Source: Hymenobacter daecheongensis DSM 21074
GTDB lineage: Bacteria > Bacteroidota > Bacteroidia > Cytophagales > Hymenobacteraceae
Direction of reading: 5' to 3'
Length of the DNA stretch: 64,000 nucleotides
Assembly: GCF_900141805.1 (NCBI RefSeq)
Contig: NZ_FQYN01000012.1
Coordinates: 1-64,000, forward strand
Shown: positions 39,770 through 48,984 of the stretch, in pieces
Position numbering within the stretch: position 1 is the stretch's first letter
Layout: the number at the start of each line of letters is the position of its first letter
Notes under the pieces: generated by a model
The model's database searches: none
What the model was told of the DNA's origin: nothing
What the model saw: only the letters and a program-made list of their open reading frames with translations
Program-made: the position numbers and the translations under genes

Positions 39770-40393
39770 TCATACATTTAGTTCTCGCCAACTAACTCTG
39801 TCATTTTCAACCGCATCCCTGATTAATCTTTGCCGCTTGCTTAAAGATGATTTACCAGTTTTTATTTCGAGAATATAAATATCAACAACGTCTTCGTTTT
39901 CTATTCCTTCGAACACAATCATATCAATTGGACTTCCTATAAACCTAGCTTCTTTAGGATTAAAGGGGAAGTTTTGATGAAAAGGAATTAGATGTTCGGT
40001 GACTTTGCCTAAAATTACTGACTGGCTTCGATTAATTGCATCTTGCCGATAAAACATCTCATATTTGGTTTTCCATGCTTCCAAGTCAGCAAGAGCAGTC
40101 TTAGCAGCGGCTGCAGATAAGACTGCTCTCAAACTTTCAATCTCATTATTTTTGAATTCGTCAAATTGCTGATTTGCCAGAATAGGTATATTTTTATAGG
40201 TGTCATTAAGTTTTGACTGAATATCTTCTATTTCTTTTCTGAAAAAGGTCTCTCTTTCAAATTGCAAAGTCTCTGATTCTTTCATTAGTAAGACTTCTCT
40301 GTTCTTTATGACTTTTATCTCTTGTCCTCTGAAATAATAAAGAATAAAAAATATTATTGCAATAATGAATGCCAGAATTGTGCTTGTCTCCAT
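39770..40393 (-). CDS. Membrane-anchored nuclease related to archaeal Holliday junction resolvase (Endonuc_Holl)
   Basis: 207 residues, clearly more A/T-rich than its neighbours, so probably acquired. An N-terminal membrane helix (about 7-21, LAFIIAIIFFILYYF) is followed by a charged coiled-coil (about 25-95) and a PD-(D/E)xK-type domain (about 125-205). The latter has GKVTEHLIPF (E133), RFIGSPIDMIVFEG (D157) and ILEIKTGKS (E176, K178), then SLSKRQRLIRDAVENDRVSW. This matches the Pfam family of endonucleases related to archaeal Holliday junction resolvases as I recall it. DNA cleavage next to the membrane is inferred; defence or recombination are both possible. No partner gene seen. Confidence 0.8.
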   Translation of the reverse strand: METSTILAFIIAIIFFILYYFRGQEIKVIKNREVLLMKESETLQFERETFFRKEIEDIQSKLNDTYKNIPILANQQFDEFKNNEIESLRAVLSAAAAKTALADLEAWKTKYEMFYRQDAINRSQSVILGKVTEHLIPFHQNFPFNPKEARFIGSPIDMIVFEGIENEDVVDIYILEIKTGKSSLSKRQRLIRDAVENDRVSWRELNV

Positions 40394-40625
40394 GAGTTAA
40401 GTTTGTTTTTGTTGGTTCAACTTCTCCAAAGCTATCTGCTTCTTTCCAACATCATTCAGATTCTCATCAATGTATTGCCGCCGTACGCGATACGCTCGAC
40501 AGCTAGGGCCACCAGCCGCACATGCTTCCGCCCACACGCTCGAAGCGCACCACCGTGCCAGCCGGAACGTGGAGGCAGAAGCCGCAAGCAGCGGCGCGGG
40601 GTAGCCTGGCGATGCTATTCGGCGC
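40394..40625. other. Junction between A/T-rich island and hicB
   Basis: 232 bp. Sequence is A/T-rich up to about 40480 and then changes sharply to GC-rich. On the minus strand one frame reads CGFCLHVPAGTVVRFERVGG then SMCGWWP and stops (about 40514-40590), which looks like the end of a decayed gene, but I cannot name it. Confidence 0.3.
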
Positions 40626-41006
40626 TCAAAAAGCAAAGTCCATTTCTGCCAGCTCGCGGCCTACGGCCCGCACACCTTCCAGAATCCGCCGCGTCTGGGT
40701 GGGGCTGGGCTTCTTGTTGCCGGAAACATACTGGCTGAGCAGGCTTTGGGTCATGCCCAGACGCTTAGCCAGCGCGGCGGCGTTGATGACTTTGTAGGCG
40801 TCGAAAAACGATTTCAAGTCATAGGTGATTTTCACGTCTTCGATGCTGATAGTGCGGCCCGTGTCGCTCAGGGCTAGGTTCAGCACTTCTACCATGTTGG
40901 CCTTCAACTCCTCGAAGTTGGTTCCCACTGTGTAAGCGCCTTCGCCTTCGTTGTAGGCGCTGTAGCCCGTGGCGGTGCGCTCTACTATCATCTCATATTT
41001 TTTCAT
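40626..41006 (-). CDS. hicB: HicB-family antitoxin with C-terminal HTH
   Basis: 126 residues from ATG 41006 (MKKYEMIVERTATGYSAYNE). N-terminal partial RNase H-like HicB fold (about 1-70) with GAYTVGTNFEELKANMVEVL, then an XRE-type helix-turn-helix (about 85-126): ALAKRLGMTQSLLSQYVSGN then KKPSPTQTRRI. It should bind the HicA toxin at 41118 and repress the operon through the HTH. The toxin gene is upstream (41118-41318), in the normal hicA-hicB order, though the 111-bp gap between them is longer than usual. Confidence 0.85.
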   Translation of the reverse strand: MKKYEMIVERTATGYSAYNEGEGAYTVGTNFEELKANMVEVLNLALSDTGRTISIEDVKITYDLKSFFDAYKVINAAALAKRLGMTQSLLSQYVSGNKKPSPTQTRRILEGVRAVGRELAEMDFAF

Positions 41007-41117
41007 CGTCTGGCTTGCTACTTGAGTAGATTGGGCATCTGGTTCTATTCTCAAAGGTAGTTAATTCACTACCAATATCGCAGCCGCCCAGCGGGGCATC
41101 ATGCTTTAGCAGCGGCG

Positions 41118-41318
41118 CTACTTGAGGCCCGCCTGTTTCAGCAGCACCGCCGCCAGCCCTTTGCCGACCTCCGCGCTGCCGTGGAGCGGAAATTCCAGGT
41201 AGCCGCTTCGGGTGAGAGCTTTCTTGGTGGCGTGCGCCAGCTTGATGTGGCTGCCCGTCTGGGCAATCTTGTACCAGCCGTCTCTGGTCAGCCTGCGGTA
41301 GAGTTCCGAGCTTTTCAT
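41118..41318 (-). CDS. hicA: HicA-family mRNA interferase toxin
   Basis: 66 residues from ATG 41318 (MKSSELYRRLTRDGWYKIAQ). The double-stranded-RNA-binding-like fold is recognisable, with the catalytic histidine H24 in TGSHIKLAHATKK, followed by LEFPLHGSAEVGKGLAAVLL. HicA enzymes cut mRNA on ribosomes or free RNA to stop growth; HicB neutralises them. Full family length and intact active-site histidine indicate a working toxin. It lies in the 38.2-41.6 kb mosaic zone, which fits horizontal acquisition. Confidence 0.88.
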   Translation of the reverse strand: MKSSELYRRLTRDGWYKIAQTGSHIKLAHATKKALTRSGYLEFPLHGSAEVGKGLAAVLLKQAGLK

Positions 41319-41636
41319 AGCTGAATGCAAGCAATCAGTTGGCCGGTAGCGTCGGCGCGCGCGCTCAGGAGGAGGGGGAAAAACATGGTTTTAAGGTAGA
41401 GAGGAGAAGCGTAAATGTCGTTTATCCGTTGTCAATAACGGCTCGATGGGTTTGCGGCCGATGAGGTTGCTGTAGAATTGATTATTCCAACTAAAGCTAC
41501 TGGTATCGGGAATACGGTTTGCTACGCCCAAAGTACTCGATGTAGGTGCCGGTACAAAGTTCAGGTGGCCCGCAATACCGCCCAAATGCCCCGAACTTCC
41601 TACATTCCGCCTCCGAACCACACGCCTTCTTTCCGC
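41319..41636. other. Intergenic region with a possible gene remnant
   Basis: 318 bp between hicA and the DUF885 gene. On the minus strand, 41391 to about 41590 gives about 60 codons reading HLNFVPAPTSSTLGVANRIP, then DTSSFSWNNQFYSNLIGRKP, ending in a stop. This looks like the C-terminus of a secreted hydrolase-like protein, cut off by the DUF885 gene. No start or upstream part survives, so a remnant is only suspected. Confidence 0.3.
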
Positions 41637-43496
41637 ATGAAAAACCTTGCCCTCACCGGCCTGCTGGCCGCCGCTTTGCTGGCCGGCTGCAACCAGCAGA
41701 AAACCACCACCGCCAACACCGCCGACGCGAAAGAGCTGCCCGCGCTGTTCGATACGTATTGGGAAGAGCAAGCCAAGCTGTTTCCGCTGGCCGCCACCGC
41801 CCAGGGCGACAACCGCTACAACGACCAGCTGCCCAACGACCAGACCCGCGCCTTTCGCCAAAGCCTGGCCGCCTTCTACCAGCGCTACCTCACCCAGCTC
41901 GGCCGCTTCGAGCGCGAAAAGCTGTCGGCCAACGACCGCACCAGCTACGATATCTTCCAGTATGATCTGCAAACGCGGCTCGACGGCCTGCAGCAGGGCA
42001 TTCTGGTGGGCAGCGACTATCCCGCCCACTGGATGATTCCCTTCAGCCAGTTTGGCGGCCTGCCCATCTCGCTGGGCCAGTTCGGGGCCGGCACCGGCAG
42101 TCAGCCGTTCAAAACCGCCAAAGACTACGACAACTGGCTGGGCCGCGTCCACGGTTTCCCGGTGTGGGCCGATTCGGCCATCAGCAACTTCCGGGCGGGG
42201 ATGCGGGCCAGCGTGGTGCTGCCCCGGGCCCTGGTGCAGAAAATGATTCCGCAAATGCGGGCGCTGGTGGTCACGGACCCCGCCAAAAGTCTGTTCTACG
42301 GCCCCATCAGCACTTTCCCCAAAGACCTGGCCGCCGCCGACCGGCCGCGCCTGACCACGGCCTACCAGCAGGCCATCGGGCAGGAGCTGGTGCCGGCCTA
42401 CCGGAAGCTGGCCGATTTCCTGGAGCAGGAATACCTGCCCAAAGCCCGCGCCACCACCGGCATCAGCGCCCTGCCGGCCGGCCCGGAGCAATATCGGTTT
42501 CTGGTGAAATACTGGACCACCACCGACAAGACCCCGGAGGAAATCTACCGGACCGGCCGGAGCGAAGTGGCGCGCATTCGCACGGAGATGGAGCGGGTGA
42601 AAGCCCAGACGGGCTTCAAAGGCGACCTGAAAGCCTTCTTCGAGTACATGAAAACCGACCGCCGGTTTATGCCCTACAAGTCGCCGGAGCAGGTGCTGAG
42701 CGCTTTTCGCGGCATCCAGGCGCGCATCACGCCCAACCTGAAAAAAATGTTTGGGCGCACGCCCAAAACCGGGTTTGAAGTCCGGCAGACCGAGGCCTTC
42801 CGCGCCGCCTCGGCTTCGGCCGAGTATAATCCCGGCACCCCCGACGGCTCCCGGCCTGGCATCTTCTACGTGCCCATTCTGGATGCCACCACCTTCAACA
42901 CCACTTCCGGCATGGAGTCGCTGTTTCTGCACGAGGCCATTCCGGGGCACCACTACCAGGTTTCGCTGCAGCAGGAAAATGAAAGCCTGCCCAAATTCCG
43001 CCGCTTTGCCTGGTACGGAGCCATGGGCGAGGGCTGGGCGATGTACACCGAAAGCCTGGGCAAAGAGCTGGGCCTCTACACCGACCCCTACCAGTACATG
43101 GGCGCGCTGGGCGACGAAATTCACCGCGCCATCCGGCTGGTGGTAGATGTGGGCATGCACACCCAGAACCTGACCCGCGAGCAGGCCATCGACTACATGA
43201 TGGCCAACGAAGCCATCGGCGAGCAGGGCGCGACGGCCGAGATTGAGCGCTACATGGCCATTCCGGGGCAGGCGCTGTCGTATAAGATCGGGTCGCTGAA
43301 AATCGGGGAGCTGCGTCGCAAATACGAGCAGCAGCTCGGGCCGGGCGCGGCGGGTAAGCTCCGCGAGAAGTACCCGCACCAGAACGGCAATCATTTCCAC
43401 CTCAACGCCTTTCATGATGAGCTGCTGCGGGATGGCGTGATGCCGCTGGCCGTGCTGGAGCGCAAGATGGACGACTGGGCCGCCGGGGAGAAGTAG
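41637..43496 (+). CDS. DUF885 lipoprotein, probable metallopeptidase-like hydrolase
   Basis: 619 residues from ATG 41637. Lipoprotein signal MKNLALTGLLAAALLAGC with Cys18 in an LAGC lipobox, so it is anchored to a membrane and exposed to the periplasm. The DUF885 family metal-like motif HEAIPGHHYQ (432-441) and the following GEGWAMYTESLGKELG are intact. Structures of relatives show a zinc-peptidase-like helical fold; the substrate is unknown. Normal length for the family. An upstream frame to 41478 has no homology. Monocistronic. Confidence 0.9.
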   Translation: MKNLALTGLLAAALLAGCNQQKTTTANTADAKELPALFDTYWEEQAKLFPLAATAQGDNRYNDQLPNDQTRAFRQSLAAFYQRYLTQLGRFEREKLSANDRTSYDIFQYDLQTRLDGLQQGILVGSDYPAHWMIPFSQFGGLPISLGQFGAGTGSQPFKTAKDYDNWLGRVHGFPVWADSAISNFRAGMRASVVLPRALVQKMIPQMRALVVTDPAKSLFYGPISTFPKDLAAADRPRLTTAYQQAIGQELVPAYRKLADFLEQEYLPKARATTGISALPAGPEQYRFLVKYWTTTDKTPEEIYRTGRSEVARIRTEMERVKAQTGFKGDLKAFFEYMKTDRRFMPYKSPEQVLSAFRGIQARITPNLKKMFGRTPKTGFEVRQTEAFRAASASAEYNPGTPDGSRPGIFYVPILDATTFNTTSGMESLFLHEAIPGHHYQVSLQQENESLPKFRRFAWYGAMGEGWAMYTESLGKELGLYTDPYQYMGALGDEIHRAIRLVVDVGMHTQNLTREQAIDYMMANEAIGEQGATAEIERYMAIPGQALSYKIGSLKIGELRRKYEQQLGPGAAGKLREKYPHQNGNHFHLNAFHDELLRDGVMPLAVLERKMDDWAAGEK

Positions 43497-43587
43497 GTCG
43501 GCGCTTGGGCCCGAATTTCGTCCCAACGCCGGGCCGGCTCCTGCGTTTAGGCCAGAAACTCATTCTTCTACCCATCCCTTTCTTCTT

Positions 43588-44130
43588 ATGGCAAATCTTC
43601 TTTGGAAAACCCTGGGCGCGGGTGCCCTGGCCGGCCTGCGCAGCATGACCCCGCTGGCCACGCTGAGCAGCTCGCTGGCCAAGCACAACTCCGCCAATCT
43701 GGCCGCCTCGCCGCTGCGGTTTCTGCAGTCGAAAGCGGCCGCTACGGGCCTCAAGCTGCTGGCCGGCGGCGAAATGGTGGCCGACAAAATCCCCGGTATG
43801 CCCAACCGCACCAACCCAACCGCTCTGCTGGGCCGTGCCCTTTCCGGGGCCCTGATTGGGGCCACGATGTATAAAGCGGGCAAAAACCGGCAGGTAGCCG
43901 TGGGGGCCGCGCTAGGCAGCGTGGCCGCCGTGGCCGCCACTTTCGCCAGCTTCCACCTGCGCAAAAGCCTGGGCAAGCAAACCCAGGTGCCCGACACGGC
44001 TTGGGCTCTGGCCGAAGATGCCGCCACGCTGGGCAGCAGCCTGGCCGTGGCTAAAGCGCCCAAAGAGGCCCGGCCGCGGTTTGGCCGCTACGCCTGGCCC
44101 CGCTACGGGCAGCGCGGGTTTTGGGGCTGA
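43588..44130 (+). CDS. DUF4126-like membrane protein
   Basis: 180 residues, starting MANLLWKTLGAGALAGLRSM then TPLATLSSSL. Contains the GLRSMTPL element, LLAGGEMVADKIPGMPNRTN and GRALSGALIGATMYKAGKN, typical of DUF4126 proteins with three to four weak membrane helices. Function unknown. It is followed by a large inverted repeat (44163-44259). C-terminus is basic (RPRFGRYAWPRYGQRG). Confidence 0.75.
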   Translation: MANLLWKTLGAGALAGLRSMTPLATLSSSLAKHNSANLAASPLRFLQSKAAATGLKLLAGGEMVADKIPGMPNRTNPTALLGRALSGALIGATMYKAGKNRQVAVGAALGSVAAVAATFASFHLRKSLGKQTQVPDTAWALAEDAATLGSSLAVAKAPKEARPRFGRYAWPRYGQRGFWG

Positions 44131-44162
44131 GCCGGCCGGTCAGGCTGATTTTTAAACTGCCC

Positions 44163-44259
44163 GAACAATGAAGCGACGCGACTTTCCGCGTCTTGGCGTT
44201 GAACGACTCCCGAGGGTCGCGAATGCCGAGACGTGGAAAGTCGCGTCGCTTCATCGTTC
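44163..44259. repeat. Long imperfect inverted repeat
   Basis: The 36-nt left arm (44163-44198, core ATGAAGCGACGCGACTTTCC) matches the right arm (44224-44259) in reverse complement at 32 of 36 positions, with a 25-nt centre that itself can pair (CGACTC/GGGTCG). It reads the same on both strands, has no coding potential and resembles dispersed palindromic units of this genus. Confidence 0.7.
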
Positions 44260-44298
44260 AGAATCTTCACGGACTGGCTCTGCGGTAGGCCGATTGGG

Positions 44299-44433
44299 TG
44301 TGACAAAATAATGCTGACTGCCTGTTGTTGTCACAAGCCAGTGTGTGACACAATTCTGTACATTACCGATTGTTGTCACACGCTGGCTTGTGACACGATG
44401 TGCATCTTCCTTATTTTTTGTCACACCCACCCG
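44299..44433 (+). promoter_or_regulatory. Three phased 45-bp units with TGTGACA-N22-TTGTCACA, before an HTH gene
   Basis: Six boxes alternate in orientation: TGTGACA at 44299, 44344 and 44389, and TTGTCACA at 44328, 44373 and 44418. Every unit is exactly 45 bp, with 22 bp between the two half-sites and 8 bp to the next unit, and with different filler in each. The array ends two bases before the ATG at 44436. The two inner 23-bp palindromes are also reverse complements of each other with one mismatch, and the outer ends TGGGTGTGACAAAA and TTTTGTCACACCCA are inverted repeats. It is most simply an operator array read by the HTH protein encoded next to it. Confidence 0.65.
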
Positions 44434-44435
44434 CT

Positions 44436-44993
44436 ATGCCCAATTACCTCCGCGACCAGTTCGGATTAACCCAGGAGCGCCTGGCCTCGTGGCTAGGCAT
44501 TGCCCGCGGCACGCTGGCGATGGGCGAAGGCAACGGCAGCCGCGGGCTGCCGGGGGCCAACTGGGTGAATAATCTGCGCCTGCTGCTGGCCGGCCAGGGC
44601 AAAGTGTACGACCCCGCCACCCCCGACGCGCCCCACCCGGCCCCGCCGCCGCTGCCGCCTCCACCCATCACCACCGACCCGCTGGCCTGGCGCGTGCGGG
44701 TAGCCCGCCACGAGATGTACCAGCTAACCCGCCGCCTGGAGCGGATGCAGGCCCGCGCCGCCCAGCATAATTTGCGGCTGGCGGCCCTGCCCGCCCTGCG
44801 GGCCTACGCCGGCCCGGTAGAGAACCCCGCCCGCGAAGCCGGCTGGCTGGCCCTGTTCGAGGGCGAGGCCGTGGACGAGCTTCGCGACCTGTGCGGAGCC
44901 GGCCCCCAGCGCCTGCTGGAAGCCCGCCTCGCGGGCCTGGTCCGCGAAGTGGAGCTGTTGGAAGAGCTGCTGCCCCCGCCGGAGCCGGCGTAA
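44436..44993 (+). CDS. HTH (XRE-like) DNA-binding protein with coiled-coil tail
   Basis: 185 residues. The N-terminus MPNYLRDQFGLTQERLASWL then GIARGTLAMGEGNGSRG reads as a helix-turn-helix (about 3-40). A Pro-rich linker (PHPAPPPLPPPPITT, about 64-82) leads to a helical region (about 85-185) rich in Arg/Leu/Glu, ending LVREVELLEELLPPPEPA. It looks like a two-part DNA-binding regulator. Its start lies two bases after the three-unit TGTGACA array, so autoregulation through those boxes is inferred. No known family name. Confidence 0.65.
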   Translation: MPNYLRDQFGLTQERLASWLGIARGTLAMGEGNGSRGLPGANWVNNLRLLLAGQGKVYDPATPDAPHPAPPPLPPPPITTDPLAWRVRVARHEMYQLTRRLERMQARAAQHNLRLAALPALRAYAGPVENPAREAGWLALFEGEAVDELRDLCGAGPQRLLEARLAGLVREVELLEELLPPPEPA

Positions 44994-45006
44994 GGCCCGA
45001 ATCAAT

Positions 45007-45047
45007 CAAAAAGAGGCCCGCAACGTGCGTTGCGGGCCTCTTTTTTG
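45007..45047. terminator. Bidirectional terminator
   Basis: GAGGCCCGCAAC (45013-45024) pairs perfectly with GTTGCGGGCCTC (45029-45040) with an A-run before and a T-run after. It serves the HTH gene and the convergent lipoprotein gene ending at 45064. Confidence 0.9.
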
Positions 45048-45063
45048 GGCGGCTGATTCGGCC

Positions 45064-45432
45064 TTACTTCTGGGTGGTGCCGGAGTTGGTGCCGCTCTTG
45101 GTGTTGTTGTAGGAGGCCGCGCCGGGCGGTGGCGGGCCGCCGGCCGCCCCTTTCACTGGCGTCGACTCGTTGAGGCCGGCCGGCGGGGTAGCCGTGCCCT
45201 GGTCGGTGGCCTGCTGCTGATCGGCGGCGGAGCCGGTGCCGGCGGGCGGATTCACGTTTTGCGCGGTGTTCACGCTATCCATGTCGGTTTCCATCTTGCG
45301 GGCCGGCGGAGCATCGGAGAAGTCGTTGTTGGTTTGCTGGTCGGTGCCGGGGGTGCGGCTTCGGTCGCAGGCGGCGAAGGTGGCGGAAGCGGCCAGCGCC
45401 CCGGCCAGCAGCACTCGTTGGGATAGTTTCAT
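45064..45432 (-). CDS. Small low-complexity lipoprotein
   Basis: 122 residues from ATG 45432. Signal MKLSQRVLLAGALAASATFA then AC gives a lipobox with Cys22, so a lipid anchor is expected. The rest is disordered, rich in Thr, Pro, Gly and Asn (TDQQTNNDFSDAPPARKMET; PPPPGAASYNNTKSGTNSGT). No domain recognised. It is divergent from the Dph6-like gene at 45540. Possibly a cell-envelope stress or spacer lipoprotein. Confidence 0.7.
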   Translation of the reverse strand: MKLSQRVLLAGALAASATFAACDRSRTPGTDQQTNNDFSDAPPARKMETDMDSVNTAQNVNPPAGTGSAADQQQATDQGTATPPAGLNESTPVKGAAGGPPPPGAASYNNTKSGTNSGTTQK

Positions 45433-45527
45433 TTGGGGTTGGGTTGGTTGGGCGATGCTATGTCGGTTTGAAGTGCGGTATACGCGGGATGGCCGGGCCG
45501 TGGCTAACCCACGCCGGCCCAAACCGC

Positions 45528-45535
45528 TAGCTTTG
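45528..45535 (+). promoter_or_regulatory. -7 promoter box immediately before a start codon
   Basis: TAGCTTTG is an exact TAnnTTTG box ending four bases before ATG 45540. If used, transcription would begin at or just inside the start codon, giving a leaderless or nearly leaderless mRNA. Confidence 0.45.
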
Positions 45536-45539
45536 CCGC

Positions 45540-46238
45540 ATGGCAATTCCGGTTCTTATCAATTGGAGCGGGGGCAAAGACTCGGCCCTGGCCCTGTACC
45601 ACCTCCTGCACGATGCCCGCTACCAGGCCGCGCACCTGCTTACCAGCGTGAATGCCCACTACCAGCGCGTATCGATGCACGGCGTGCGCGTGGCGCTGCT
45701 GGAGGCGCAGGCCCGGCGCATCGGTCTGCCCCTCACCCAGCTGGCCCTGCCCGAAACTCCCGATATGGCCGCGTACGAGCAACTCATGCAGGCCGCCCTC
45801 GGCCCGCTGGTGGCCCAGGGAATCCGGCACGCCATGTTCGGCGACATCTTTCTCGAAGACCTGCGCACTTACCGCGAGCAGCAGCTGGCCCGCCTCGGCA
45901 TGCAGGCCCAGTTTCCGCTCTGGCAGCGCCCCGGTGCCGATATTCTGCGCGAATACCTCAGTCTGGGCTTTCGCGCCATCATCGTGTGCGTGAATGCGCG
46001 GCACCTCGACCAAAGCTTCTGCGGCCGCCTGCTCGACGAAGATTTTCTGCGCGACCTGCCTCCCGGCGTGGACCCCTGCGGCGAAAACGGGGAGTACCAC
46101 AGCTTCGTGTTCGACGCGCCGTATTTCTCCACGCCCATTCTCTTTACCAAAGGCGAAATCGTGCGCCGCACCTACCCAGCCCCCGGCGGCGGGGGCGAGG
46201 CCGCCTTTTGGTTCTGCGACCTGCTGCCAGCGGGCTGA
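45540..46238 (+). CDS. Dph6-like ATP-pyrophosphatase (diphthine-ammonia ligase family)
   Basis: 232 residues. The PP-loop SGGKDS (10-15) and the family pattern MFGDIFLEDLRTYREQQLAR and GENGEYHSFVFDAPYF are those of the diphthine-ammonia ligase (Dph6/MJ0570) family. The eukaryotic enzyme finishes diphthamide on EF-2. Bacteria lack diphthamide, so the true substrate here is unknown, perhaps another amidation. Cytosolic and monocistronic. A TAGCTTTG promoter box ends just before the ATG. Confidence 0.85.
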   Translation: MAIPVLINWSGGKDSALALYHLLHDARYQAAHLLTSVNAHYQRVSMHGVRVALLEAQARRIGLPLTQLALPETPDMAAYEQLMQAALGPLVAQGIRHAMFGDIFLEDLRTYREQQLARLGMQAQFPLWQRPGADILREYLSLGFRAIIVCVNARHLDQSFCGRLLDEDFLRDLPPGVDPCGENGEYHSFVFDAPYFSTPILFTKGEIVRRTYPAPGGGGEAAFWFCDLLPAG

Positions 46239-46258
46239 AGCAGTAATGCGGAAATCCG

Positions 46259-47275
46259 CTAAAACTCGTATTCGTCGCGGTGCCGGCTCGCGTAGCGGTT
46301 GGCATAAGGCCGATGCGGGGCCGCGCCGTTTTTGCGCTTGCGCAGCAACAAGTAGCCCAGCCCGCCCACCAGCGCCGCCCCGGCTACCCACTTGGGAAAC
46401 GCATCGGCCGGGGCCGGCGGCACCGACACCACGCCCGACTCGTCGGCTACGGCCGGGTGGCCCACGTAGCGGCCGTGGGCCGGCACGGCCTGCTGCTCAA
46501 AGTTGGTGGCCAGCGCGTGCAGCTGCCGCCGCAGCTCCTGGCCGTGCATCGGAATGCCGTGGCCGGTGGCCGCAATCTGGGGCTCCAGCGCCGCCAGCCG
46601 CTGCACCGATTCGCGGGCCTGCTGCCAGTCGGGGGTGAAGTAGGCGGGCGGGCCGTGCACCTCCTGGCGCTGCTCCCACACCGCCAGCCCCGATTCCTGC
46701 TGCACCGTCACGAAAGCATCGCCCGCCAGCAGTACCCGGTCGGAGTCGCGGAAGAACGCGACGTGGCCGGGCGTGTGACCGGGCGTATGAATCCAGCGCC
46801 ATTCGGTCAGAAACGGCAGGGTGCCGTTCACGGGCAGCGGCTTCACGCGGGAGCCCAGGTCGATGGGCTTTTTGGGGTAGAGAAACGACATGGCCGCCAT
46901 CATACCCCCGCCCACCGTGGGGTCCGGCGGCGGATACGACGAGCGGCCCGTGAGGTAGGGCATCTCCAACGGATGGGCATACACGGGCACGTTCCACTCT
47001 TCCGCCAGCGTTTTCAGCGCCCCGATGTGGTCGAAATGGCCGTGGGTAAGCACGATGGCCGCGGGCGGGTTGTTGGCCCCGAAAATGGCCTCGGCGTGGT
47101 GCTTGATCTTTTCGGCCGAGCCGTATAGGCCGGCATCAACGAGCACCCAGGGCTCCAGCGGCGACGATGTGTCGCGCACGAAATACAGGTTGACAAAAAC
47201 ATTGCGCAGCCCCCACACGCCCGGCGCAACGGCCTGCAGGGTAGGGGTGGTAGCACGATTCGCGTGTTCAGACAT
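46259..47275 (-). CDS. MBL-fold metallohydrolase with C-terminal membrane anchor
   Basis: 338 residues. Metal-binding motif HGHFDH (78-83), then HTPGHTPGHVAFF and GDAFVT give the zinc site of a metallo-beta-lactamase fold. A C-terminal helix (about 293-308, WVAGAALVGGLGYLLL) followed by a basic tail (RKRKNGAAPHRPYANRYASR) anchors it to the inner membrane with the catalytic domain on the same side as its N-terminus, probably cytoplasmic since no signal peptide exists. The reaction (lactone, glyoxalase II-like or other) is not determined. Convergent with the Dph6-like gene. Confidence 0.87.
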   Translation of the reverse strand: MSEHANRATTPTLQAVAPGVWGLRNVFVNLYFVRDTSSPLEPWVLVDAGLYGSAEKIKHHAEAIFGANNPPAAIVLTHGHFDHIGALKTLAEEWNVPVYAHPLEMPYLTGRSSYPPPDPTVGGGMMAAMSFLYPKKPIDLGSRVKPLPVNGTLPFLTEWRWIHTPGHTPGHVAFFRDSDRVLLAGDAFVTVQQESGLAVWEQRQEVHGPPAYFTPDWQQARESVQRLAALEPQIAATGHGIPMHGQELRRQLHALATNFEQQAVPAHGRYVGHPAVADESGVVSVPPAPADAFPKWVAGAALVGGLGYLLLRKRKNGAAPHRPYANRYASRHRDEYEF

Positions 47276-47491
47276 GGCAGACGGGTATCAGGGTTGAATG
47301 AATGAGCGTTATACAGAGCCTGCTTACGCAATTCGGCGCGGTAGGATGACTACGCTCCGGCCGTACTTTTCGCCTGGTTTTTTGTTAAAGTGCGCAGCAA
47401 GGGTGCCGACTGAAGAAAGCACGTCATGCTTCGACAAGCTCAGATGACGTTCTTTTAGTTCGTTAGCCTCTCCCCGCACTCACCCCGCCTC

Positions 47492-47899
47492 ATGCCCGCT
47501 GCTCCCGCTACCATCCTCTTCGACGGTGTCTGCAACCTCTGCAATGGCTTCGTGCAGTTCATCATCCGCCACGATGCCGCCGGCCGCTTCCGGTTTGCGG
47601 CGCTGCAGTCGGCAGGTGGACAGGCGCTACTGACCGCCAACGGCCTAGTGGCCCCGGCTGAGCCGGAAACGGTGCTGCTGGTAGAAGACGGCCAGATATA
47701 CACGCACTCCACCGCCGTGCTGCGCATTGCCCGTGGCCTGGGTGGCGGGTGGCGGGGGCTGGCGGCGGTAGGCGGGCTGCTGCCCCGGCGCTGGCGCGAT
47801 GCGCTCTACCGCTTCGTGGCCCGGCACCGCTACCGCTGGTTTGGCCGGCAGCAGGCCTGTATGCTGCCCACGCCGGCCCTGGCCGGGCGGTTTTTGTAG
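47492..47899 (+). CDS. DCC1-like thiol-disulfide oxidoreductase (DUF393)
   Basis: 135 residues. The defining DxxCxxC motif is at D11-GV-C14-NL-C17 (LFDGVCNLCNGF), followed by the family features RFAALQS, ILRIARGLGG and RHRYRWFGRQQACMLPT. These small proteins have a thioredoxin-like fold and are predicted redox or thiol-handling proteins; the partner is unknown. Ends 80 bp before the quinone reductase gene, which could share a transcript, although a TATCTTCG box at 47923 may serve the latter separately. Confidence 0.88.
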   Translation: MPAAPATILFDGVCNLCNGFVQFIIRHDAAGRFRFAALQSAGGQALLTANGLVAPAEPETVLLVEDGQIYTHSTAVLRIARGLGGGWRGLAAVGGLLPRRWRDALYRFVARHRYRWFGRQQACMLPTPALAGRFL

Positions 47900-47922
47900 C
47901 GGCGACGTTGGCCGCGGCGGGC

Positions 47923-47930
47923 TATCTTCG
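47923..47930 (+). promoter_or_regulatory. Possible -7 box for the quinone reductase gene
   Basis: TATCTTCG, one base from TAnnTTTG, 49 bp before ATG 47980, in the gap after the DCC gene. Confidence 0.3.
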
Positions 47931-47979
47931 CCCGCCGCGGCCGGTGGCTGCTTTTCTTCCCTCCTTAATTCTTCGACTT

Positions 47980-48984
47980 ATGCAGGCTCTCCAGCTCAAT
48001 GGCATCAACCAGCCCCTGGTTCTCACCGAAGTGCCCACTCCCGCACCCGGCCCCGGCGAGGTGCTGGTGCGGCTCCGCGCCGCCGCCCTCAATCACCGCG
48101 ACGTCTGGATTCAGAAGGGCCAGTACGCCGGGCTGAAATTCCCCTGCATCCTGGGTTCCGATGGGGCCGGCGTGGTAGCAGCCCTCGGCGAGGGCGTGGC
48201 CGCCGACCTGTTGGGCCAGGCCGTGCTCATCAACCCCGGCCAGAACTGGGGCGACAACCCCCACGCGCAGGCCAAAAGCTTCACCATTCTGGGCCTGCCC
48301 CATCAGGGCACCTTCGCTGAGTACGTGGCCGTGCCGGCCGAAAAAGTGCACGCTCTGCCAACGCACCTTGGGTTCGAGCAGGCCGCGGCCCTGCCGCTGG
48401 GCGGGCTCACGGCCTACCGGGCCGTGTTCACGCGGGCCGGGCTGCGGGCCGGCGAGCGGGTCTTGATTACCGGCGTGGGCGGCGGCGTGGCCATTCTGGC
48501 CCTGCAAATGGCTGTGGCCGCGGGGGCTGAAGTGTGGGTAACCTCCGGCTCGCCCGAAAAAATAACGCGGGCCGTGGCGCTGGGAGCCAGAGGCGGCGTT
48601 AGCTACAAGGACGAAAACTGGCCCGCCGACCTCGTGCGGCAGGCCGGCGGGGCCTTCGACGTGCTAGTGGACAGTGCGGCCGGGCCGGGCTTCGGGGCGC
48701 TGCTGGATGCCGCCGCGCCGGGCGGGCGCATCATGTTCTACGGCGGCACGCTGGGCGCTATTTCGCAACTGCCGCCGGCCAAAATCTTTTGGAAGCAGCT
48801 CTCCATCCTGGGCTCCACGATGGGCACCGACGACGATTTTGCTGCTATGGTGCGCTTCGTGGCCGAGCATAAGCTGGTGCCAATGGTAGATCAGGTGTTT
48901 GGGCTGGCCGAGGGCGAGCAGGCCATGCGCCGGATGGATGAAGGCCATCAGTTCGGCAAAATAGTGCTCCGGATTCCGGAGTGA
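47980..48984 (+). CDS. Zinc-type/quinone oxidoreductase of the MDR family
   Basis: 334 residues from ATG 47980 (MQALQLNGINQPLVLTEVPT). GroES-like N-terminal part (AAALNHRDVWIQKGQYAGL, GSDGAGVVAALGEGV) and Rossmann part (LITGVGGGVAILALQMAVAA). No structural four-cysteine zinc site is visible. It fits the NADPH-dependent quinone oxidoreductase/YogA-like branch of medium-chain dehydrogenases; substrate unknown. Cytosolic. The frame runs open upstream to 47749, overlapping the DCC gene, but only this ATG fits the family start. Confidence 0.88.
   Translation: MQALQLNGINQPLVLTEVPTPAPGPGEVLVRLRAAALNHRDVWIQKGQYAGLKFPCILGSDGAGVVAALGEGVAADLLGQAVLINPGQNWGDNPHAQAKSFTILGLPHQGTFAEYVAVPAEKVHALPTHLGFEQAAALPLGGLTAYRAVFTRAGLRAGERVLITGVGGGVAILALQMAVAAGAEVWVTSGSPEKITRAVALGARGGVSYKDENWPADLVRQAGGAFDVLVDSAAGPGFGALLDAAAPGGRIMFYGGTLGAISQLPPAKIFWKQLSILGSTMGTDDDFAAMVRFVAEHKLVPMVDQVFGLAEGEQAMRRMDEGHQFGKIVLRIPE

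Follow-up and report, generated by a model that had tools for sequence, protein, structure and literature searches.

The controller (C) proteins of restriction-modification (R-M) systems, such as C.BclI, C.AhdI, C.Esp1396I and C.Csp231I, combine an N-terminal XRE-type helix-turn-helix (HTH) domain with an operator of repeated palindromic sites located directly upstream of the regulator gene itself. In the case of C.Csp231I, it is the length of the spacer, rather than its sequence, that is critical for the binding of two dimers (PMC4321490). In C.Kpn2I the site lies inside the transcribed region, within its coding region, and blocks the elongating RNA polymerase (PMC6237814). The XRE HTH and autoregulation via own operators are also features of the HipB and Xre antitoxins and of phage repressors of the Cro/CI type.

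A locus from Hymenobacter daecheongensis, which we analyzed within a 64-kb stretch of DNA (the window, part of contig C7 of the 4.39-Mb genome), shares several of these features. It codes for a protein with an N-terminal XRE-type HTH, has repeated palindromic sites immediately 5' of the corresponding gene and, as we propose here from comparisons of sequences, might likewise be autoregulated via these sites. As in C.Csp231I, the spacers of the Hymenobacter arrays are fixed in length and free in sequence. In contrast to the R-M C proteins, the Hymenobacter protein is approximately 185 residues long and contains a Pro-rich linker and long helices at its C-terminus, its sites form three units at a 45-bp phase, and genomes contain many paralogues that differ in their boxes. 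R-M controllers are encoded alongside a restriction enzyme and a methyltransferase, whereas no R-M genes were noticed around the loci that we inspected, the recurring neighbors of the homologues being read as housekeeping genes. Unlike with the HipB and Xre antitoxins, no recurring partner or toxin was recognized beside the homologues among ORFs of 110 aa or more. Unlike in these proteins and the Cro/CI-type repressors, the C-terminal domain has no significant fold match, with a Foldseek search of the predicted model against the PDB recovering none at E<=0.001. A single array of this sort is ordinary in kind; the interesting part is a spacing rule held across the family together with private box spellings.

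Architecture of the array

The HTH gene (44436..44993, + strand) encodes the putative binder of an array of six boxes. TGTGACA starts at 44299, 44344 and 44389 and TGTCACA at 44329, 44374 and 44419, giving alternating orientations, start-to-start spacings of 30/15/30/15/30 and a repeating unit of 45 bp, in agreement with the exact phasing of six half-sites reported in the initial annotation. These are the only TGTGACA/TGTCACA heptamers in the 64-kb window, with every one of the six inside 44299-44425. On the + strand, unit 1 (44299..44335) consists of TGTGACA (44299-44305), a 22-bp spacer and TTGTCACA (44328-44335); the same three elements make up unit 2 (44344..44380; TGTGACA at 44344-44350, 22-bp spacer, TTGTCACA at 44373-44380) and unit 3 (44389..44425; TGTGACA at 44389-44395, 22-bp spacer, TTGTCACA at 44418-44425). 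The units are separated by two 8-bp linkers, of which linker 1 (AGCCAGTG, 44336..44343) is an inverted copy of linker 2 (CGCTGGCT, 44381..44388) with one mismatch. Spacers and linkers are thus as previously described.

The two inner palindromes had been noted to be mutually reverse-complementary, and this holds with one mismatch for the 22-mers at 44329-44350 and 44374-44395. The outer ends, also noted earlier as inverted repeats, form a perfect inverted repeat of 14 bp (TGGGTGTGACAAAA, 44295-44308, and TTTTGTCACACCCA, 44416-44429), so that the whole array (44295..44429) is an imperfect palindrome of 135 bp. The palindromic character extends beyond the boxes, with 48 of the 93 non-box positions being self-complementary as against 22 expected. 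We speculate that the extended palindromic character of the arrays, spacers included, may stem from template switching in hairpin-prone DNA and not from function. The array had been said to end two bases before the ATG, a figure that counts an 8-bp tail up to 44433; the last box itself stops at 44425, and the ATG at 44436 lies 10 bp further. This start codon is backed by the orthologue from another Hymenobacter genome, G097, which begins at the same residue.

The -7 element of Bacteroidota promoters is TAnnTTTG. A weak match to it, TTATTTTTTG (44411..44420, + strand), overlaps the last box and is a putative promoter, and in the homologous loci L026, L027 and L029 the last box overlaps with an exact TAnnTTTG. 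Over the family, the element is found at 11 of 74 loci, which is not a significant enrichment (shuffle mean 5.8, maximum 12). The array itself is probably situated within the 5' leader of the HTH gene.

Between the array and the neighboring DUF4126 gene there is another inverted repeat, of 38 bp and 89% complementary (44163-44259), whose RNA fold reaches -76.7 kcal/mol (z=-12.8). About 40-50 bp of it are found at four other sites in the genome, on contigs C8 and C12, and it is therefore REP/MITE-like and separate from the array.

The HTH protein and its family

The 185-aa protein has its HTH helices at residues 2-53, followed by the Pro-rich linker and three long C-terminal helices at 80-178. 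The HTH helices are present in the predicted structure, which has a mean pLDDT of 94.8. Profile searches against the PDB recovered C.BclI (8.9e-5), C.AhdI (2.9e-4) and HipB. In Pfam, the window protein matches HTH_19 alone (8.6e-4, under the gathering cutoff); among 34 family members, matches at E<0.01 are to HTH_31 in 21, HTH_3 in 18 and HTH_19 in 12, an N-terminal XRE HTH that places the family in the XRE/Cro-CI class. No family of NCBIfam or PHROG gives the window protein a name; the HipB-like TIGR03070 of NCBIfam matches paralogues below the cutoff, and a search for defense systems returned generic HTH matches in paralogues only, with none for the window protein.

Within the genus, homologues are present in 54 of 120 genomes. 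For the GTDB family as a whole, a profile made from the 34 members gives matches in 63 of 205 genomes (two of six genera); in an order-level sample of 292 genomes, matches are limited to four of 116 genera and are weak in two of these. A profile from a narrower family alignment gives matches in six Hymenobacter genomes. Copy number per genome goes up to at least 16, this being the number of candidates scored. The genome of the window itself has seven full-length paralogues with seven different arrays or box sets, and these differently spelled arrays make insulation between the paralogues probable. A search of a literature collection for Hymenobacter with such regulators returned no paper. This is a large, lineage-specific and apparently undescribed family in Hymenobacter.

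Co-inheritance of arrays and HTH genes

The initial annotation had proposed seeking the boxes upstream of homologues. A significant inverted-box array is present just upstream of 59 of 70 homologues, as against 12 of 140 control windows taken from the same loci, with significance assessed by a per-locus shuffle; by this test 8-11 of the 70 (e.g. L082 and L088) lack one. An array can be seen at all but a few of the 30 closest homologues and at most of 40 more distant loci. Direct repeats spaced by exactly 15 bp occur at 36 of 74 loci versus 3.6 in shuffles, and inverted pairs are enriched at about 27-31 bp. Two layouts recur: in one there are three or two inverted pairs approximately 30 bp apart, and the other is a long palindrome in which two direct boxes 14-16 bp apart face two inverted ones, with boxes F1-R2 and F2-R1 being again approximately 29 bp apart. 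Some arrays consist mostly of direct repeats spaced by 15 bp (L053, L043), an example being L053:1290-1470, where seven direct boxes ATGCAACAAAGCGGG at exact 15-bp intervals are followed by one inverted box. The 30 closest homologues spell their boxes as TTGTCACA, TTGTAGCA, TTGTAACA, TTGTTACA, TTGTTGCA, TTGTTTAG, TTGTTTCA or ATGTCGCA, and more distant members have TTGTCTCC, TGACACAA, ACGTCACA and others.

The two-unit pattern TGTGACA-N20..25-TGTCACA-N7..9-TGTGACA was also searched for in the 120 Hymenobacter genomes, with the reversed pattern as control. The pattern is present in the genome of the window, in G097 and, irregularly, in G036 (3/120), and the control in none (0/120); it is hence not due to chance, the strict phasing and double symmetry having been called unlikely by chance in the initial annotation. 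In G097, one three-unit array stands directly before the gene for the 77%-identical orthologue, with the same 45-bp phase and in the same place as in the window, and another is found downstream of a gene for a 309-aa protein. Between the window and its G097 counterpart, 41 of 42 box positions are kept as against 30 of 85 spacer positions. Arrays of the type TTGTCTCC-N20..25-GGAGACAA occur in exactly eight of the 120 genomes, and the matching HTH subtype is in each case encoded no more than about 150 bp away.

Furthermore, the letters of the boxes vary with the protein. In a set of 33 loci, with boxes partly assigned by eye, the distance between recognition helices correlates with that between boxes after removal of the distance between C-terminal domains (partial Mantel r=0.25; 0 of 2000 permutations). 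In the same set, Met or His at residue 7 of the helix goes with TTGTCACA and Gln with TTGTAGCA (one exception), Glu is paired with TGTCGCA, and for Leu the box is mostly TTGTTnnn. The sites are thus conserved with the regulator's own gene and covary with its recognition helix, as is characteristic of an autoregulatory array. This covariation offers comparative support for operator binding by the XRE-type HTH protein, and favors the cooperative autoregulatory operator that was one of two possibilities raised in the initial annotation. We accordingly consider it quite probable, judging from the sequences, that the array serves as operator for the gene next to it in a negative autoregulatory circuit.

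The link between boxes and protein also bears on two other explanations. The core of the CRP half-site is TGTGA, the complete site being TGTGA-N6-TCACA, and TGTGACA includes this core; the boxes could be sites for an unrelated global regulator of the CRP/FNR type that controls the HTH gene by chance. However, the spacing in the array is 8 (outward) or 22-23, the box letters vary with the HTH paralogue, and the array occurs in few places per genome, making this explanation very unlikely. Alternatively, the array could act at the RNA level, with the transcribed leader folding as a large hairpin that attenuates or stabilizes the HTH mRNA (and the mRNA of trpC, a gene with a similar array discussed below). 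Consistent with this, the array is in the probable 5' leader and its RNA fold as a whole reaches -74.1 kcal/mol (z=-10), with a median z of -5.5 across 76 arrays of the family; yet good folding is expected of any array of inverted boxes. A stem would preserve pairing and not letters, whereas it is the letters of the boxes that are kept between the orthologues and that track the recognition helix, and the arrays composed mostly of direct repeats spaced by 15 bp form no hairpins. A search of 40000-48000 against Rfam gave no match to a known RNA family. A role as an RNA hairpin explains less than the operator reading and appears unlikely to us.

Distal arrays

Some array types also occur at a distance, as a small number of copies located in intergenic gaps. 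The flanking genes, which we take from reading of the sequences rather than from databases to be trpD, trpC, hisS, hutH and pectinesterase genes, include those of the trp operon, where a second three-unit TGTGACA array is located in the trpD-trpC gap of the same genome as the window (L004:6970-7095). Its units are of 37, 36 and 37 bp with 8-bp linkers, it fills about half of the 232-bp gap, and it matches the window array over 59 bp at 80%. TGTGACA-type boxes are also found in the trpD-trpC gap of G014 and G016, and are absent in most relatives; these include G051, which is the closest at the trp locus, implying that the regulon is not well conserved. G015, G016, G036 and G039 have one TGTCACA-N22-TGTGACA group beside an HTH homologue, with further such groups elsewhere in G016, G036 and G039. 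Similarly, a three-unit copy of the array of the paralogue on C12, with ACTGACACG boxes, is seen in the hisS-hutH gap of the window's own genome (L199:1460-1590), two of its units being identical and inverted relative to each other. Arrays of the TTGTCTCC type are found in the same gap between two pectinesterase genes in G005 and G036. Taken together, the distal copies have the appearance of small regulons that change quickly.

The other possibility raised in the initial annotation was a small transposon-like element, namely a MITE-like mobile element or its pair of ends that was inserted before the HTH gene and in the trp operon. The perfect terminal inverted repeats, the 59-bp match to the second array, the gains and losses in the trp gap between species and the identical inverted units of the hisS-hutH array are all in line with insertion. 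Set against this, there are just two copies in 4.39 Mb and no dispersed family with conserved ends, neither a transposase nor, by eye, a target-site duplication was seen, and the spacers are largely unrelated between copies and orthologues. Moreover, in many homologues the HTH gene is accompanied by an array, the boxes of which vary in sequence, and two kinds of distal site each occupy the same operon gap in more than one species. Searches of plasmid and viral-contig collections, which reach only close relatives, recovered no relative. The mobile element is thereby largely refuted and we regard it as highly improbable. The same searches provide no candidate for a phage or plasmid origin.

It had also been suggested that the operator idea would fall if homologues lacked the boxes and the same array adjoined unrelated genes with no HTH partner. 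The trpD-trpC array does adjoin an unrelated gene, but the homologues do not lack the boxes, and the distal copies are therefore better read as a small regulon than as a refutation.

A proposed mode of action

As far as can be read from sequence, the most likely role of the protein is to bind the boxes in a cooperative manner, to repress its own gene and to act on a small regulon. One HTH domain would read one box as a half-site, and inverted boxes approximately 30 bp apart, which is near three helical turns, might be bridged by a dimer or higher oligomer through the long C-terminal helical domain, as the Pro-rich linker would allow. Three bridged pairs side by side at the 45-bp phase could then bind cooperatively, and we infer a complex with this geometry. 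Occupancy of the array over promoter and leader would repress the regulator's own gene, with the three bridged pairs blocking the promoter or the early transcript. For arrays within operons, such as that between trpD and trpC, the elongation roadblock of C.Kpn2I offers a possible model by analogy; unlike the C.Kpn2I site, the Hymenobacter arrays are intergenic, and a roadblock here is our proposal.

More tentatively, we envisage an expanding Hymenobacter family of mutually insulated regulators that have a common operator geometry (15, 30 and 45 bp) and private box spellings, and in which arrays in operon gaps connect individual paralogues with a handful of genes each, probably by blocking a promoter or by acting as a roadblock to transcription. 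If this is true, a single genus would contain a large natural set of paralogous repressors whose cognate operators lie beside their genes, so that a recognition code could be read from sequence alone. Such a set would open the insulation of paralogous regulators after duplication to study, and provide ready-made orthogonal repressor/operator pairs.

Gene neighborhoods

In the window, the neighbors of the HTH gene are DUF885, DUF4126 and Diphthami_syn_2 genes. Also in the window, an ORF on the - strand (40626-41054) resembles a HicB-type antitoxin with an HTH, making this its candidate identity. Among the homologous loci, the HTH genes of L066, L068, L077 and L083 are divergent from what reads from its sequence as hisS, and those of L061-L063, L073, L074, L076, L078 and L092 are divergent from a glycosyltransferase-like gene.
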